Assembly: GCA_903920455.1 (NCBI GenBank)
Contig: CAIXLY010000042.1
Span: 1-45,766, forward strand
Length of the DNA stretch: 45,766 bases
DNA from: an uncultured bacterium
GTDB taxonomy: Bacteria > Bacteroidota > Bacteroidia > Chitinophagales > Chitinophagaceae
Direction of reading: 5' to 3'
Position 1 is the stretch's first letter. Each line of letters begins with the position of its first letter. A program made the position numbers and the translations under genes. Under the pieces are notes generated by a model. It was not told where the DNA came from and did not search any database. It worked only from the letters and a program-made list of their open reading frames with translations. Below, in pieces: positions 7,286-24,808 of the stretch.

Positions 7286-8422
7286 ATGGAAACCATGTAC
7301 GATCTCAATAATTTATACGAAAAAGCACTCCAGCTTGAGTTTCTAACTGCCGAAGAGGGTTTGTTTCTATTCAAAGAAGCGCCCCTTGCTGAACTGATGC
7401 AGGTCGCAGACCAACTCAGAAAAAAACAAGTCCCACACGGTAAGGTCAGCTGGCAAATAGACAGAAATGTAAACACCACGAATGTTTGCATTGCAAACTG
7501 CAAATTCTGTAATTTCTACCGTATACCCGGCCATGCAGAAGCATACATCACCACGATGGATACCTACAGAGAGAAAATAAAGGAAACCATTCAGTGGGGT
7601 GGCGATCAGTTGTTGCTACAAGGTGGCCATCATCCGGACCTTGGACTAAAATATTACACAGATACTTTTCGTGCGATAAAGAGTGAATTTCCGGACATCC
7701 GCCTTCATGCGCTCGGTCCACCTGAAATTGCCCACATCACTAAAATTGAAAAGTCGACACACCGGGAAATTCTCTCTGCCTTGAAAGAAGCAGGGCTCAA
7801 CTCTCTCCCTGGCGCTGGGGCTGAAATACTGGTAGACCGTGTACGAAAGTTGGTGAGCAATGGAAAATGTGGAGCTCAGGAATGGCTGGATGTGATGGCT
7901 GAAGCCCATCAACAAAACATCACCACCTCTGCAACGATGATGTTTGGACATGTTGAAACACTAGAAGAAAGATTTGAGCACCTCATAAAAATTCGTGAAG
8001 TACAATCAAAAAAACCTGAAAAAGCCAATGGGTTCCTTGCCTTTATCCCGTGGACCTTTCAGGACGTAGATACCTTGCTCACGAAAATTCGTGGCGTGCA
8101 GAATCTAACTACGGGTGAAGAATACATAAGAATGATTGCGATCAGCAGGATTATGTTGCCAAATATCAAAAACATACAGGCATCATGGCTTACCGTAGGG
8201 AAAAAGATTGCACAGATTTGTTTACATGCAGGGGCAAATGATTTCGGCAGCATCATGCTGGAAGAGAATGTGGTCAGTGCAGCGGGTGCGCCACACCGTT
8301 TTACCTATAAGTCAATACAAGAATCCATCAGAGAAGCGGGATTCGAACCACAACTAAGAACTCAGGAATATGAGTGGAGAAAACTACCGGAAAATATCGA
8401 AGAGCAAGTGATTAATTACTAG
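7286..8422 (+). CDS. mqnC: Cyclic dehypoxanthinyl futalosine synthase
   Basis: A 378-residue radical SAM enzyme of the futalosine route to menaquinone. MqnC cyclises dehypoxanthinyl futalosine. The cluster motif CIANCKFC places cysteines at 68, 72 and 75 (CX3CX2C), followed by NFYRIPGHAEAY. Other MqnC hallmarks are LLQGGHHPDLGL, LHALGPPEI, SLPGAGAEILVDRVR, TTSATMMFGHVET, FIPWTFQ, IQASWLTVG and GANDFGSIMLEENVVSAAG. The sister enzyme MqnE has different sequence at these places. ATGs occur at codons 1 and 4 and either may be used. No other menaquinone gene lies in the window. Confidence 0.92.
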   Translation: METMYDLNNLYEKALQLEFLTAEEGLFLFKEAPLAELMQVADQLRKKQVPHGKVSWQIDRNVNTTNVCIANCKFCNFYRIPGHAEAYITTMDTYREKIKETIQWGGDQLLLQGGHHPDLGLKYYTDTFRAIKSEFPDIRLHALGPPEIAHITKIEKSTHREILSALKEAGLNSLPGAGAEILVDRVRKLVSNGKCGAQEWLDVMAEAHQQNITTSATMMFGHVETLEERFEHLIKIREVQSKKPEKANGFLAFIPWTFQDVDTLLTKIRGVQNLTTGEEYIRMIAISRIMLPNIKNIQASWLTVGKKIAQICLHAGANDFGSIMLEENVVSAAGAPHRFTYKSIQESIREAGFEPQLRTQEYEWRKLPENIEEQVINY

Positions 8423-8440
8423 GCTGGGAGTTGAAGTAGG

Positions 8441-8523
8441 GTTGAGAGAAGTTGAGGGAAGTTTAGAAAGGTTTAAAAGCAACATCTCAACCTCTCTAAA
8501 CTTCTCTAAACATTTCTAAACTC
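8441..8523. repeat. Inverted repeat built from 10-nt units (copy 1)
   Basis: The left arm is a run of degenerate 10-mers (GTTGAGAGAA, GTTGAGGGAA, GTTTAGAAAG, then GTTTAAAAG). The right arm carries the complementary units (CCTCTCTAAA, CTTCTCTAAA, CATTTCTAAA). The arms are separated by a few bases around 8480 and could form a long imperfect hairpin between two convergent genes. The right arm reaches 8518 and includes the stop codon (TAG in GTTTAG) of the minus-strand gene. A related copy lies at 22149-22283. Confidence 0.75.
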
Positions 8524-19425: not shown

Positions 19426-21540
19426 TTAAGATGTCCTCAGCGGTTGTACAAGCAAGGAAACAATCGGTTTGCTTTGAATTTTTACGTTGATGCTTGTATC
19501 CCCGTCTTTAATATTCAATTCAAAGTTTTCGAGTTCCATTTTTTCGTTTTTTAGCTCTTTGCGTATCCCTTCTTCAAGTTTTTCAATCATGTCATCCGAT
19601 TCCTCCTGGTCTGGGTACTTTTTTTCAATTCCCCCTTCCTTCATGATATACCAAACACCTGGTCTCCAAAAATAATCAACATCAACTTCATCATCACTGC
19701 TGATTACAAGGCCTCTAACCCCTCCTTTGATAGAAAACCAACTTAACCGATCTGCTTTTTCATCTATATATATTTCACGTCCTACAGGTACTTCAATTTG
19801 AACAATAACCTGCTGATTCCTAAACTTGGTTTTGGTGGTAATCGGAAACGACATGGGAAATGTTAACACGCTATCGGTCTGAGAAACCGGAATAGAAATC
19901 TGTTCAGCTGCTTTTTCTGCATCAACTGTTGATGATGCTCTTGCTCGCCTGATGATTGTAACGTGAAAACTATCATCTCTGCTTCTGATGATCTTTGGTT
20001 TAATATTGCTAATGAGCATGCTGTCCTCCTTGGATGAAAGCCTAATTCCTCCAGTTGGGAAATCCACATCTTCATCATCAGTTTCACTAAACCTTAATGG
20101 ATAATATTTTCCTTCTACTGACTTAAAATTTATTTTAAGTCTGCCCCCTGTAGGCTGTACTATTGTCATCTCATTTCTTACTGAGCCCATTCGGCTAAAT
20201 TCTTTGGAAATAGTTGTGAAGAAAAGAATTAAGGATGCGCAGCCCGCCAACCACAAAATCAAAAGGGAATATCTGAGATATAGATTCTTGGATTTCCTTC
20301 CAATGATTTTACGAACAAGAGTAATGGCAAGCCCAACTACAGGAACAGCGAGGAAAAATAAGAAAATACCCCAGCCATACAATTCTACCTCATGACCATT
20401 AGCGGCAAAATTTTTCAGTGGCATTAAGGCAATGCCGGCAGTCATAAATGCAAACAATGAAACAATGAGTGCGATTGCAATGACACTAAGCACGAAGAAT
20501 ATAAAAACCTTGAAAACGGCAACAATAACTCTTCCTAGTGTACTGCCTCCACTTTTAATTGCTGGGCTTGCTTCCTTTGAAAAGCGCGTTGCTGCTTCTT
20601 TTACCTCTTGACTAAATTCAGTTGCTTTGTTTGATGCGGTTTTTTTCCAGTTTTCTGAATGAGCTGAAATATTTTTTTTTACATCATTCAAGTCGTCCTG
20701 AACCTTATTTTTTATTGATTCAAGGTCAACACGCTCTCCACTCATTTCAAGTTTTTCAGACGCTGTTACTGCCTTAGGAACAACAGCCCAAAGTATTATA
20801 TAAATGAAAAACATGGTTCCAGAAAAAGATGCCGCCAAAGGAAAAAATAAAAGTTTGAACGGTATTTCAAATATCCCCATCAACAAAGGCAAGGCAAAAA
20901 TCAAACGAGGTATCCACACTGCTATATTAAAATATTTGGCGATACCACTACATACACCGCCCAATACTTTCTGTTCGGCATTCCGATATAACTTACGTGC
21001 AATAGCCGAACCAATCATTTCCTTGGAGGGAAGAATTGCCCAAAGTATTACATACAGTAAAAATCCTGTGCCAAATGATCCAACAGTGAGCACTGCAAAA
21101 AGCACCCTTACTATGGTGGTATCAATTCTAAAATAATTGGCTAGGCCGCTACACACGCCACCAAGCAATTTATCATTTGCGTTTCTGTATAAAGACCCTC
21201 TGGGTTCAACTGTATTCGACCCAGACTTTTGTTCTTGCTGTGATGAATAAACAGATGGTTCATCATCTATCATCACTTCGTCAAATTGCTCTGGTCTACC
21301 AATGCTTGCAATGATATTCAGAACATGTTGCTCCGCGATAAAAGGCGAATCGCCTGTTTTCAGCTTTTCGCTGAATAATTCTGCAATTCGATTTTCAATG
21401 TCATTTATTATTTCTTCTTTGCCTTCTTCATTGGCAAAATGAGCGCGCAGACTTTCTACATATTTTTTCAATTCTTCATAAGCGGGCTCCTCGATAGGAA
21501 TCACTCGGCCTTGGAAATTGATGTTGATGACCTTATTCAT
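19426..21540 (-). CDS. PspC-domain envelope protein with two PspC modules
   Basis: The 704-residue membrane protein begins with a cytoplasmic segment (MNKVININFQGRVIPIEE) common in Bacteroidota PspC proteins. Two PspC modules follow: LYRNANDKLLGGVCSGLANYF at about 117 and LYRNAEQKVLGGVCSGIAKYF at about 183, each with paired transmembrane helices. A coiled, charged stretch (about 270-330), three more helices (about 340-440) and a large beta-rich C-terminal domain complete it. PspC proteins belong to phage-shock/envelope-stress responses. The gene starts 59 nt after the PadR gene and is almost certainly under its control. The exact signal it senses is unknown. Confidence 0.9.
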   Translation of the reverse strand: MNKVININFQGRVIPIEEPAYEELKKYVESLRAHFANEEGKEEIINDIENRIAELFSEKLKTGDSPFIAEQHVLNIIASIGRPEQFDEVMIDDEPSVYSSQQEQKSGSNTVEPRGSLYRNANDKLLGGVCSGLANYFRIDTTIVRVLFAVLTVGSFGTGFLLYVILWAILPSKEMIGSAIARKLYRNAEQKVLGGVCSGIAKYFNIAVWIPRLIFALPLLMGIFEIPFKLLFFPLAASFSGTMFFIYIILWAVVPKAVTASEKLEMSGERVDLESIKNKVQDDLNDVKKNISAHSENWKKTASNKATEFSQEVKEAATRFSKEASPAIKSGGSTLGRVIVAVFKVFIFFVLSVIAIALIVSLFAFMTAGIALMPLKNFAANGHEVELYGWGIFLFFLAVPVVGLAITLVRKIIGRKSKNLYLRYSLLILWLAGCASLILFFTTISKEFSRMGSVRNEMTIVQPTGGRLKINFKSVEGKYYPLRFSETDDEDVDFPTGGIRLSSKEDSMLISNIKPKIIRSRDDSFHVTIIRRARASSTVDAEKAAEQISIPVSQTDSVLTFPMSFPITTKTKFRNQQVIVQIEVPVGREIYIDEKADRLSWFSIKGGVRGLVISSDDEVDVDYFWRPGVWYIMKEGGIEKKYPDQEESDDMIEKLEEGIRKELKNEKMELENFELNIKDGDTSINVKIQSKPIVSLLVQPLRTS

Positions 21541-21599: not shown

Positions 21600-22046
21600 C
21601 TATTGTAATTGTTTATCATGTTCAGGATCTGCTGCATCATACCCGGTCTCCTCTTCTCTTGCATTTCCACCCTCGTCCCTTGTATTCCCCCCCTCGTCCC
21701 CTGTCCCTTGTCCCTCGTCCCTTGTATTTATCACTCTCTCCACTCCATCCGCCATACTCCTCCAGGTTTGCTCAAGGTCTTTATAGAAAGAAGCCCCTTT
21801 TTCTGTAAGAGAAAAGTATTTGCGTGGCGGCCCCCCTGAGCTTTCAACCCAGCGGTAAGACAATAGATCTGCATTTTTCAATCTGGTAAGTAGGGGATAT
21901 AAGGTGCCCTCAAGGATATTGAGCTTCGCCTTTTTCATCTCTTCAATAATATCACTTGGGTAAGCCTCACCACGCTGAATGACAGACAGGATGCAGAATT
22001 CAAGCACCCCTTTTCGCATCTGGCTCTGTGTATTTTCTATATTCAT
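21600..22046 (-). CDS. PadR-family transcriptional regulator with repeat-encoded tail
   Basis: Residues 1-105 form a PadR winged helix: MRKGVLEFCILSVIQRGEAYPSDIIEEMKKAKLNILEGTLYPLLTRLKNADLL, then GGPPRKYFSLTEKG and one C-terminal helix. Residues 107-140 are unlike any PadR and are encoded by a purine-rich DNA repeat (NTRDEGQGTGDEGG, NTRDEGG). The PadR domain itself is complete, so the regulator is probably functional. It sits directly before the PspC gene, a common pairing in Bacteroidota, and palindromes over its own promoter suggest autoregulation. Confidence 0.93.
   Translation of the reverse strand: MNIENTQSQMRKGVLEFCILSVIQRGEAYPSDIIEEMKKAKLNILEGTLYPLLTRLKNADLLSYRWVESSGGPPRKYFSLTEKGASFYKDLEQTWRSMADGVERVINTRDEGQGTGDEGGNTRDEGGNAREEETGYDAADPEHDKQLQ
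21627..21728. repeat. Purine-rich repeat inside padR
   Basis: On the minus strand this is a purine-rich array of GGGACAAGGGACGAGGG-like units. A 17-nt unit (AATACAAGGGACGAGGG on the minus strand) occurs twice exactly, at 21670-21686 and 21712-21728. A 25-nt block at 21691-21715 matches 23073-23097 inside pcrA at 24 of 25 positions. The repeat encodes the Gly/Asp/Glu-rich tail of PadR. Confidence 0.85.
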
Positions 22047-22083
22047 ATACCTGTTTTTGAATGCTAGGAATCAAATTACAGTA

Positions 22084-22122
22084 CAAATATAGGAGAATTA
22101 TAGTACTATGCAATAAATAGTA
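22084..22122 (-). promoter_or_regulatory. padR promoter with overlapping palindromic operator
   Basis: On the minus strand, TTG (22113-22111), a 19-nt spacer and TATATTTG (22091-22084) are an exact Bacteroidota promoter. Over the -33 box lies the inverted repeat TACTAT (22104-22109), 7 nt, ATAGTA (22117-22122), and a second overlapping palindrome ATAGTACTAT (22100-22109). PadR proteins commonly bind such sites in their own promoters. The leader from the -7 box to the ATG is 37 nt. Confidence 0.65.
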
Positions 22123-22148
22123 GTGTTTATTTTAGAGTAGCGCGGGGA

Positions 22149-22283
22149 GGTTGAGAGAAGTTTAGGGAAGTTTAGTTAATTGATATTAAGGTGATTTATT
22201 TCGTGAAGTATTGCTTTCTAGACCATTAACATTGAACTCTAAACACCTAAACGAATAAGCTTCTCTCAACCTCCCTCAACCTC
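22149..22283. repeat. Inverted repeat built from 10-nt units (copy 2)
   Basis: The left arm (22149-22175) reads GGTTGAGAGA, AGTTTAGGGA, AGTTTAG. The right arm (22259-22283) is the complementary series (AGCTTCTCTCAACC, TCCCTCAACCTC). The arms flank about 83 nt of unique sequence. The unit is the same as at 8441-8523. The repeat begins 3 nt beyond the pcrA stop codon, so it probably ends pcrA transcription, and it separates pcrA from the padR promoter. Confidence 0.75.
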
Positions 22284-22285
22284 TT

Positions 22286-24808
22286 TTATACTATTCTCAG
22301 CTTCGCATAATTAAGCATGATTTTCTTCTCTCCATTGAGATCAAATTTTATCGTAGCAATGGGATTGTGTGCAGCTCCTTCCATTTTTAGTACCTCTCCG
22401 AAGCCGAATTTCTGATGTTCTACCTTTTGTCCGGCTTGTAGATCTGAGGTATCGCTTGGTGCAAAATCGGGAGAAGGCAGATGAACCACTGGCTTATTTA
22501 AAGCTGCAGGTGTGGTAACGGGCAAATAGCCGGGGCGTTCTGGAGTCTTTTTCGCAGCAGCCGATGGCGTCTTTTGTCCATATTGAGGTTGGCCGGATGA
22601 GCCCCATCCACGCATCCTTTCAGATGCCGATGTGGCTTGCTGATTTCTGAAACCGCCCCCAGCATAGGAACGATCAAGATGTATTTCTGGCAACTCATTA
22701 AGAAATCGACTTGGGTCATTCTGTACTACCTGACCAAATTTATACCTGGTGTTGGCATAGCTAATCCAAAGCTTGTGCTTTGCTCTTGTAATCACTACAT
22801 AAAATAACCTTCTTTCTTCTTCTAGCTCTTCTCGGGTATTTATGCTCATGGCATTGGGGAACAACATCTCTTCCAAGCCAACTGCAAAAACACAGGAAAA
22901 TTCCAATCCTTTTGCAGCATGTATCGTCATCATTTTAACCGTATCAGCATGCTCATCTTTTTGATCAGAATCTGTGAGCAGGGTGATCTGTTGCAAATAG
23001 GTACCAAGCAATAAATCTTCTCTTAAAGGCCTGTCCGGGATCGGCTCCTGCATTTCATCTACTCCGGCTGCTCCCTCGTCCCCTGCCCCTTGTCCCTTGT
23101 CTCCAGACGCTTCGGTCTGGATCTCCGATGCTCTCTCTCGCTGCGCTCGCTCAGCATCTCCGACCTCGTACCCTGTATCCCCCTCCATCACAACACCATC
23201 TTCATCTATTTGAGAACGATTCTGTTTGTCATCAACCCATTCTTTGATTGAGTTCAATAATTCTTGTACGTTCTCATAGCGCTGAACACCTTCAGTGCTT
23301 TTATCATTGAACAATTCTTTGACCAACCCCGTCTGCTTGCCTACATGAAAAGCAACATCATATGCATTGCCCTTAGTTAACATGCTGGCAAAGCTTTTGA
23401 TCATCAACACAAAATTTTCAATGGCCTCCAGTGTACCGGCTTTAAAACCAAATTCAGTTGCCCTGGTTAACACCTCCCATAAGCTGATGTTTTGTTCGTT
23501 TGCAGCAAGAATAAGTTTGTCTAAGGATGTTTTTCCAATGCCACGAACAGGATAATTGATAATACGTTTCAGTGCTTCTTCATCGCGTGGGTTAACAATC
23601 ATCCTGAGATAAGCGATATAATCTTTTACTTCTTTGCGTTGATAAAAGCTAATGCCGCCAAAAATGGTATAAGGAATATTCATTCTTCTCAAGGATTCCT
23701 CAAATGCACGGCTCTGGGCGTTTGTTCTGTATAAGATGGCAAAATCCTTATTGAAAAAATGATTCCTGAGTTTTTGTTCCTGAATGGTGTCTGCTATAAA
23801 TTTCCCTTCGTCATTATCAGTCATTGTTCTCACCAACCTAATCTTCTCACCATCTCCATTTTCCGTCCACAACTCCTTAGGAATTTGGCCCTTGTTATTT
23901 CCAATCACTTCATTGGCTACATTGAGTATTTGTTTAGTGCTGCGGTAATTCTGCTCCAGCTTAACAACCTTTACATCTTCATAATCTTTTCTGAACAACA
24001 GAATATTTTCAATGGTAGCACCACGGAAAGAATAAATAGATTGTGCATCATCGCCAACAACGCAAATGTTTTCGTGGGCAGCTCCCAATAATTTGATGAT
24101 TTCGTATTGCGCAGGATTTGTATCCTGATACTCATCAATCATGATGTAGTTGAACTTATGCTGATACTTGTGCAGGGCATCAGGATGGTATTTAAGGATG
24201 AGATAAAACTGCAAAAGCAAATCATCAAAATCCATTGCCCCATTCTTAAAACATCTTTTTGCATATGCGCTATAAATCTGCGCAATGGCAGGCCTATTGG
24301 CGCGCGTATCTTCTTGCTGCAATCCAAAATCATTGGCATACTCCTCAGCCGTTACCAATGCATTTTTAGCTGATGAAATCCTATTGTATACCGTTGATGG
24401 CTTATAAATTTTATCGTCGAGATGGAGTTCATTGATCACCGTCTTTAATACACTCTTGGCATCATCAGTATCATAGATGGTAAAACTTGCAGGATATCCG
24501 ATCTTCTGTGCTTCTGCACGAAGAATTCTCGCAAATACAGAGTGAAAGGTCCCAATATAAAGATTGCCTGCTTCCCTGTTGTCAAGCATCCTCTCCACCC
24601 GCTCTTTCATTTCACGGGCGGCCTTGTTCGTAAACGTGAGTGCAAGTATCCTGAATGAATCCACTCCATTGGCCATCAGATGCGCAATGCGGGTGGTAAG
24701 CACCTTCGTTTTTCCACTTCCTGCCCCTGCAATAATCATGATTGGCCCATCCAAGTGCATCACGGCTTCCCTCTGTTGTGGGTTCAGCTCATCCAGGTAA
24801 TTATTCAT
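22286..24808 (-). CDS. pcrA: UvrD/PcrA-type DNA helicase with repeat-derived insertion
   Basis: The 840-residue superfamily 1A 3'-5' helicase acts in nucleotide excision repair and in removing protein from DNA. Motifs in order: NPQQREAV, Walker A GAGSGKT (28-34), GTFHSVFARILR, MIDEYQDTNPAQYEI, GDDAQSIYSFRGA, LEQNYRS, MTIHAAKGLEFSCVF and VVITRAKHKLWIS. The C-terminus (GQKVEHQKFGFGEVLKMEG through YAKLRIV) is the Tudor-like domain of PcrA. Residues about 540-585 (MEGDTGYEVGDAERAQ to GDKGQGAGDEGAAG) are an acidic low-complexity insert between the 2B region and the later motifs, encoded by repeats also found in padR. No motif is interrupted, so activity is likely kept. Confidence 0.95.
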   Translation of the reverse strand: MNNYLDELNPQQREAVMHLDGPIMIIAGAGSGKTKVLTTRIAHLMANGVDSFRILALTFTNKAAREMKERVERMLDNREAGNLYIGTFHSVFARILRAEAQKIGYPASFTIYDTDDAKSVLKTVINELHLDDKIYKPSTVYNRISSAKNALVTAEEYANDFGLQQEDTRANRPAIAQIYSAYAKRCFKNGAMDFDDLLLQFYLILKYHPDALHKYQHKFNYIMIDEYQDTNPAQYEIIKLLGAAHENICVVGDDAQSIYSFRGATIENILLFRKDYEDVKVVKLEQNYRSTKQILNVANEVIGNNKGQIPKELWTENGDGEKIRLVRTMTDNDEGKFIADTIQEQKLRNHFFNKDFAILYRTNAQSRAFEESLRRMNIPYTIFGGISFYQRKEVKDYIAYLRMIVNPRDEEALKRIINYPVRGIGKTSLDKLILAANEQNISLWEVLTRATEFGFKAGTLEAIENFVLMIKSFASMLTKGNAYDVAFHVGKQTGLVKELFNDKSTEGVQRYENVQELLNSIKEWVDDKQNRSQIDEDGVVMEGDTGYEVGDAERAQRERASEIQTEASGDKGQGAGDEGAAGVDEMQEPIPDRPLREDLLLGTYLQQITLLTDSDQKDEHADTVKMMTIHAAKGLEFSCVFAVGLEEMLFPNAMSINTREELEEERRLFYVVITRAKHKLWISYANTRYKFGQVVQNDPSRFLNELPEIHLDRSYAGGGFRNQQATSASERMRGWGSSGQPQYGQKTPSAAAKKTPERPGYLPVTTPAALNKPVVHLPSPDFAPSDTSDLQAGQKVEHQKFGFGEVLKMEGAAHNPIATIKFDLNGEKKIMLNYAKLRIV
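23073..23190. repeat. Composite repeat inserted in frame in pcrA
   Basis: Three parts lie side by side. At 23073-23100 is the purine-rich repeat, 24 of 25 positions identical to padR 21691-21715. At 23103-23120 is a small hairpin (CCAGAC, GCTTCG, GTCTGG). At 23121-23163 is a palindrome whose arms GATGCT (23127-23132) and AGCATC (23153-23158) flank CTCGCTGCGCTCGCTC, with ATCTCCGA repeated at both edges. The look is that of extragenic palindromic elements, but here it is translated. Confidence 0.75.

Follow-up and report, generated by a model that had tools for sequence, protein, structure and literature searches.

Heptanucleotide repeats rich in G have been described by Rehm et al. 2015 in Xanthomonas (unit GGGAATC) and Nostoc (GGGGAYT). 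These repeats are reported to lie about 50 bp or less behind stop codons on the sense strand, to be rare between divergent genes and under-represented on the coding strand of open reading frames (ORFs), and to show a preference for four units and G-quadruplex formation (PMC4692102). TAACTGA heptamer repeats are known from Beggiatoaceae, Cyanobacteria and five Bacteroidetes (MacGregor 2015, PMC4679880). In a literature search, the matches of which were only partly surveyed and which is weak evidence of absence, no report of such repeats was found for Chitinophagaceae, and MacGregor 2015 was the sole one for Bacteroidetes. Here we analyze a degenerate GGGACRA heptamer repeat of an uncultured bacterium of the Chitinophagaceae (assembly GCA_903920455.1), first seen in the neighboring genes padR and pcrA of contig CAIXLY010000042.1, a stretch of 45,766 nucleotides referred to below as the window.

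In the preliminary description, the padR and pcrA copies were viewed as a repeat that may be able to invade genes, and were compared to the Rickettsia palindromic elements (RPE). Each RPE is a discrete palindrome some 100-150 bp long. The repeats of the window were instead found to be unlike RPE and to resemble the G-rich repeats of Xanthomonas and Nostoc; they enter core genes on the sense strand. They form a genome-wide family that has a 3'-end and sense-strand bias near gene ends, includes coding cases and differs in unit between relatives at shared sites. They probably belong to a class of heptanucleotide tandem repeats that is specific to certain lineages, is quickly replaced and favors the sense strand directly behind stop codons.

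A heptamer family with one peptide in all frames

On the + strand, positions 21691-21715 (padR) and 23073-23097 (pcrA) were identical at 24 of 25 bases when recomputed, in agreement with the preliminary description, and 93% identical when widened to 29 bases. The ORFs of the - strand translate these blocks as DEGQGTGDEG (padR) and DKGQGAGDEG (pcrA) in equal codon phase. With up to one mismatch, GGGACRAGGG was matched 11 times in the window compared to a mean of 2.09 and a maximum of 8 after shuffling; likeness of the two blocks by chance is excluded. Tandem-repeat periods of the two arrays are 7, 14 and 21. By whole-genome search (2.31 Mb, 106 contigs), the seed GGGACRAGGGRC was found 44 times and its reversed pattern not once; grouped by place, the 44 matches represent 27 arrays of degenerate GGGACRA, an observation larger than the one first made.

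Three units make 21 bases and give an identical cyclic peptide in all three frames, as shown for GGGACAA; on the sense strand, GGGACRA reads (GTRDEGQ)n, which is stop-free and strongly hydrophilic. Because 7 is not a multiple of 3, every frame yields the same cyclic peptide, and the equal phase of the padR and pcrA blocks, although correctly noted before, is therefore weak evidence. The absence of stops, likewise noted before, follows from the unit itself. A like point on reading frames was made for the TAACTGA repeats, which resemble the present ones (PMC4679880) as dispersed heptamers that are sporadic between lineages, lie in some ORF ends and encode a frame-independent peptide. By contrast, most TAACTGA repeats of the main genome studied directly precede start codons, and TAACTGA has stops in all forward-sense frames, whereas the repeats described here lie mostly behind stop codons and are stop-free.

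A second family with a period of 10 (GTTKAGRGAR) gave 21 seed matches and no control matches in the same genome and forms an inverted pair in the pcrA-padR gap. Another inverted GTTKAGRGAR pair is located at 8440-8522 of the window, in the gap between two convergent genes (ends at 8422 and 8516). Genomes, contigs and loci are given below by our working labels. Some arrays were found within about 2 to 230 bases of a contig end at G198:C12:22699, G207:C27:5066, G213:C16:25297 and G000:C57:9013; assemblies may break at such arrays, and copy numbers would then be lower bounds.

Arrays often lie behind stop codons on the sense strand

Position and strand were determined for 81 arrays of five congeneric genomes by reading the arrays and their neighbors, with RNA genes not counted as genes. 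All listed seeds were included for four genomes and 12 arrays (from seven stretches of a longer list) for G213; L059 and L158 of G207, which appear to be one contig, with equal length and gene position, were counted as one case, and stretches L174 and L175 (from G126 and G164) were left out. By this approach, 24 of the 81 arrays were found in genes and 57 outside. Forty-one arrays were outside genes, or overlapped a gene end, with a gene boundary no more than 60 nt away. Of these, 37 followed a stop codon in sense orientation and 2 followed one in antisense; start codons were preceded by 2 antisense arrays and by no sense array (37 versus 2 behind stop codons, binomial p 3e-9). For 16 arrays, every gene boundary was more than 60 nt away; 14 of them were in antisense relative to the nearest gene, 8 on its 3' side and 6 on its 5' side. 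Within genes, 20 arrays were sense and 4 antisense (p 0.0015), which is a comparison between strands and not against the coding share of the genome; one array scored as antisense coding (L043:1990-2049) probably precedes a start codon that was miscalled.

Neighbors of the 57 arrays outside genes were convergent in 26 cases, tandem in 22 and divergent in 2, with 7 at a contig or stretch edge, compared to 36 convergent, 110 tandem and 47 divergent among the gaps of more than 30 nt in the same loci. Thus, the arrays favor convergent gaps, and divergent gaps are almost empty of them. Two tRNA-Leu genes of the window's own genome are followed by sense arrays, about 40 and 100 nt away (L036, L037).

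These data bear on the notion that the repeats are native disordered peptides with biased codons, alike through convergence. Both the padR and the pcrA site are naturally variable (a tail and a linker), as such convergence would have it, but the same DNA is present outside genes, behind stop codons, behind tRNA genes and in antisense; the intergenic copies refute this explanation, and its probability is virtually nil.

The arrays agree with those of Xanthomonas and Nostoc in a genome-wide 7-base G-rich unit (44 seed matches, 0 in the control) and in position (37/41 boundary arrays, 2/57 arrays between divergent genes), with 16 arrays farther off. Period, stop-codon polarity and shared sites with varying arrays are common to both groups (PMC4692102). 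The repeats described here differ in that 20 of 24 coding arrays are sense, several coding arrays being in core genes, compared to the under-representation of the Xanthomonas and Nostoc repeats on the coding strand of ORFs, in that other units, some without G-tracts, are at the same sites in congeners, and in belonging to another phylum.

Different units at the same sites

Ten array sites are common to orthologous genes in at least two of the genomes G000, G198, G207 and G213. For G000 and G198, 4 shared sites were observed compared to about 0.2 expected (our estimate, with 2000 genes each), the shared sites not being independent, as PcrA and PadR are adjacent. When the PadR tail and PcrA linker were compared with relatives, as the preliminary description had suggested, both were found to be variable insert sites. 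The PcrA linker was surveyed at 80 loci, in several of which the search expression found no linker. It was found to carry GGGACRA in L059-L061, GGGATGA in L062 and L064, GGGARGA together with GTYAACA in L057 and L063, GTYAACA alone in L058, an 8-base unit in L056 and another palindrome in L066, or to be free of repeats. A PcrA tree calculated without the linker requires the GGGACRA state to have changed two or more times on well supported branches, and the nearest rows to the window are without GGGACRA (fork support 86/90); the incomplete L137 was left out, and unit labels were assigned by eye, the GGGATGA label of L091 being uncertain because the repeat is so degenerate. Rows of one clade that are 90-91% alike over the preceding 1200 bases nevertheless carry a different unit (L059 compared to L062, L060 compared to L064). 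In the PadR tail, repeats start near the same codon in five species, with GGGACRA-type units in the window, G198 and L067 and GGGARGA-type units in L057 and L063, while L065 is repeat-free. Directly behind pcrA, long AGGCAAT heptamer arrays are present in two related metagenome-assembled genomes (MAGs; L065:5467-5716 and L068:4610-4954), the former with GCGTMMA-type repeats interspersed.

A third site was examined behind the stop codon of a gene that, from its protein sequence, we take to be mdh. A match was present in 37 genomes, and loci from 30 of them were analyzed. Tandem arrays reached p < 0.05 in 10 of these 30 genus genomes compared to 1.5 expected by chance; the site was picked because three genomes already shared arrays there, and 10/30 is not a random rate. 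Nine of the ten arrays have period 7 and represent five unit families, and four of the nine (G197, G221, G225 and G195) are without a GGG tract. Taken together, the sequences indicate that the place lasts at shared sites while the unit differs between relatives.

The unit families are unevenly distributed. GGGACRA seed counts range from 0 to 139 among 41 genus genomes, with any match in 18, whereas family-wide 51 of 195 genomes were matched, mostly once or twice, and outside the genus the reversed control equalled or exceeded the seed. GTYAACA was matched in 9 of the 41 genomes (most often in G198, 14, and G197, 11) and GGGAKGA in 7 (most often in G213, 26). Nine overlapping GGGACAA seeds at L171:4020-4087 (G053:C96) form a single unbroken array, unlike the degenerate arrays elsewhere, and may represent a fresh expansion. 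Viral contigs include 22 stretches with GGGACRAGGGACRAGGGAC, and in three of these contigs (L220, L224, L227) the GGGACRAGGGACRAGGGAC matches are spaced exactly 21 bases apart and are possibly coding repeats.

Possible G-quadruplexes and stem-loops

The arrays could be G-quadruplex elements of the mRNA 3' end or the non-template strand, in which at least four GGG tracts 4 bases apart would fold and thereby affect R-loops, mRNA decay or termination. Of 93 G-runs of four genomes, 63 contained at least four GGG tracts separated by gaps of up to 7, four being the commonest number (21 runs), and position and strand are as in the quadruplex-forming repeats of Xanthomonas and Nostoc (PMC4692102). However, the seed pattern itself demands two GGG tracts, the four mdh-end arrays named above have none, and AGGCAAT arrays hold the pcrA gene end in L065 and L068. 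A quadruplex as common requirement was rejected on account of the several units without G-tracts at the same site. Thus, a G3 quadruplex is possible for GGG units but not for units without GGG tracts, and we consider this explanation of the repeats unlikely.

Long stem-loops, formed by the facing arrays of convergent genes or by decamer pairs, could likewise end transcription or shield mRNA ends. When folds were compared to shuffles, convergent gaps with arrays had a median z of -6.4 (11 of 16 below -3) and those without arrays a median of -3.2 (5 of 9). Tandem gaps with an array had a median z of only -1.9 (3 of 12 below -3), compared to -0.7 (5 of 25) for the first 25 without arrays. Since tandem gaps with arrays are mostly without a strong fold, a hairpin is not the common factor. 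In addition, an ordinary terminator-like stem with a T run was seen by eye between both arrays in several convergent gaps, and coding arrays are left unexplained, which together make stem-loops a very unlikely basis of the family.

Heads, hairpins and the mobile element hypothesis

Dispersed copies and coding insertions, together with recurring sequences beside the arrays, are what a discrete mobile element would leave, whether RPE-like and invading genes in frame or of the repetitive extragenic palindrome (REP)/RAYT type. Within the 12 bases that precede the first GGG tract, ACAGCC was found in 15 and ATACA in 11 of the 93 G-runs. A 21-base hairpin (D, ATCCAGACCGRAGCGTCTGGA) adjoins the pcrA array; it has four exact genomic copies, each adjacent to a heptamer array, and another copy, with 2 mismatches, is located about 400 bases away from such an array. 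Hairpin E has two genomic copies, one directly behind a heptamer array (C35:69301) and the pcrA copy behind a degenerate unit, and in G198 a different palindrome (read as LPAGQAG) takes the hairpin position in several arrays. A composite of hairpin D with heptamer arrays is thus real. The longer composite previously thought to have spread as a unit (ETGYDAAD in padR, DTGYEVGD in pcrA) is a different matter: its copies are alike at only 17 of 24 bases, and a pattern fitting both had no third copy in 273 loci, the whole genome not having been searched with it.

The runs themselves range from 2 to 19 G-tracts and have no common ends. An RPE-like discrete element was rejected on this basis, the arrays being open-ended, without fixed unit, length or ends and not palindromic in their heptamer part, with 57 of 81 outside genes; RPE are similar in that repeats are tolerated inside core proteins, here in frame in PcrA, PadR, RicT, ScpB, MetH, PlsX and others. 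Neither a Y1 transposase (PF01797), as expected for REP/REPIN-RAYT systems and found in 23 of 41 genus genomes, nor an RVT_1 reverse transcriptase was detected in the five richest genomes (G000, G198, G207, G213 and G216), other mover families not being searched, and both were rejected as the mover. Three array genomes have one Y1 match each (G232 with 24 seeds, G053 with 11 and G199 with 10), and the absence is thus not universal among array genomes. A discrete mobile element is in our view highly improbable.

Coding arrays

Copies were counted in genes as well as between them, as had been proposed, and the family was found also in coding DNA, mostly in sense and often in tails and linkers, with arrays in PcrA, PadR, RicT, ScpB, MetH, PlsX and DeoC. 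In the window's own genome, the cases are the padR tail, the pcrA linker, the ScpB tail, the RicT tail region and the end of an AAA protein gene, and decamers in sense and heptamers in antisense are present behind an FtsZ domain. In G198, twelve sense arrays lie in genes, including those of PcrA, PadR, PlsX, MetH, DeoC, an FAD-dependent protein and a relative of altronate or galactarate dehydratase; the RicT array of G198 was assigned by homology. By comparison with solved structures, the best solved PcrA leaves query residues 530-598 unmatched and the pcrA insert falls there, the PlsX array is in extra sequence near the N-terminus, and the MetH repeat mostly takes the place of a variable linker. 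GGGACTA, a unit with a stop, accounted for 1 of 76 units in sense coding runs compared to 20 of 211 elsewhere (Fisher p 0.019); its avoidance carries little weight, the comparison being partly circular in that such a unit can end an ORF. Archaeal Borg tandem repeats are similar in their independent origin, fast evolution, presence both between genes and in ORFs, and disordered protein segments; the unit length of Borg repeats in ORFs is reported to be always divisible by three (PMC9879509), whereas 7-base units are present here in ORFs of chromosomal bacterial genes.

Features of the padR-pcrA region are listed in Table 1. Judged by PcrA, the closest relatives with a name are MAGs of Chitinophagaceae and Chitinophagales. 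No known RNA families were found in the window. A 35-base direct repeat (80% alike, 20777-20811 and 21029-21063) lies within ORF 19426-21540 and is probably a duplicated domain of that protein.

Table 1. Repeats, hairpins and genes of the padR-pcrA region, in window coordinates.
Feature	Position	Strand	Remarks
padR-family regulator ORF, 148 aa	21600..22046	-	PadR domain at residues 19-88; repeat tail past the domain
Degenerate GGGACRA heptamer array, padR 3' coding end	21650..21733	-	Encodes NTRDEGQGTGDEGGNTRDEGGNAREE; starts with head AATACA
Decamer (GTTKAGRGAR) repeat, opposite arm	22145..22175	+	pcrA-padR gap
Decamer (GTTKAGRGAR) repeat, purine-rich arm	22256..22283	-	Directly 3' of the pcrA stop codon
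pcrA helicase ORF, 840 aa	22286..24808	-	Insert between segments aligning with solved PcrA (query 5-530 and 598-714)
GGGACRA heptamer array, pcrA linker	23073..23103	-	Encodes GDKGQGAGDEG
Hairpin module D (ATCCAGACCGAAGCGTCTGGA)	23102..23122	-	Translated IQTEASG; 4 exact genomic copies, each beside a heptamer array
Hairpin module E (AGATGCT...AGCATCG)	23126..23159	-	Preceded by one degenerate heptamer-like unit

Discussion

A lineage-specific, quickly replaced class of heptamer repeats probably arises through slippage, short-homology copying, replacement in time and selection against antisense coding arrays. Arrays would lengthen and shorten in 7-base steps through replication slippage. Loops of 7-base size are too big for mismatch repair. 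As MutS1 is also present in G000, G198, G207, G213 and G216, loss of repair is not needed, and mismatch-repair loss was rejected as the cause (MutL was not searched). With neither Y1 nor RVT_1 found in these genomes and MutS1 kept, it is unlikely that the arrays are caused by a MutS defect or by a dedicated mover of either family. The current unit of a genome would spread from one gene end to another, most likely through ectopic recombination or template switching at short homologies, for which the recurring heads AACAGCC and AATACA are candidates. An array forming at or across a stop codon, or in a variable linker, would enter the protein sequence and, since the sense peptide of GGGACRA is stop-free and hydrophilic, would be tolerated as a tail or loop. 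Later loss of the array, or its replacement by another unit, would leave different repeats at the same junction among relatives.

Several points weigh against this interpretation. In an unselected sample, a strong lag-7 array was found behind 1 of 86 stop codons (20 genus stretches) compared to 2 of 103 in other genera. The density of tandem arrays of any kind is 68 per Mb in the genus and 63 per Mb in other genera; with no general excess in unselected samples, the effect is confined to some lineages or genomes and to some gene ends. The sense bias is limited to gene ends, given that 14 of 16 distant arrays are antisense, and genes were called by a simple purpose-made caller that is blind to RNA genes. 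Slippage alone leaves one unit at dozens of unlinked sites unexplained, and copying between sites would have to fill this gap. Protein-level selection does not account for the strand bias behind stop codons, which could point to a function. The arrays at shared sites could also be old ones that have taken on the current unit, and not new insertions.

An alternative is that gene 3' ends are a maintained niche for 7-base tandem repeats, in which period, polarity and place matter and sequence does not. A host process tied to 3'-end transcription would then write the current heptamer behind stop codons, and the unit would be swapped between sister species like telomere repeats with their template. 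We regard this as quite unlikely.

With the repeats described here, the little understood heptamer repeats of bacteria are extended to a genus whose sister species carry different units at the same gene ends. Place is thereby separated from sequence, so that quadruplex, hairpin and pure slippage can be compared across species. Because a 7-base unit reads alike in every frame, these repeats also provide a route for non-coding repeats into the tails and linkers of core proteins, and in annotation such tails are not to be read as conserved protein features.

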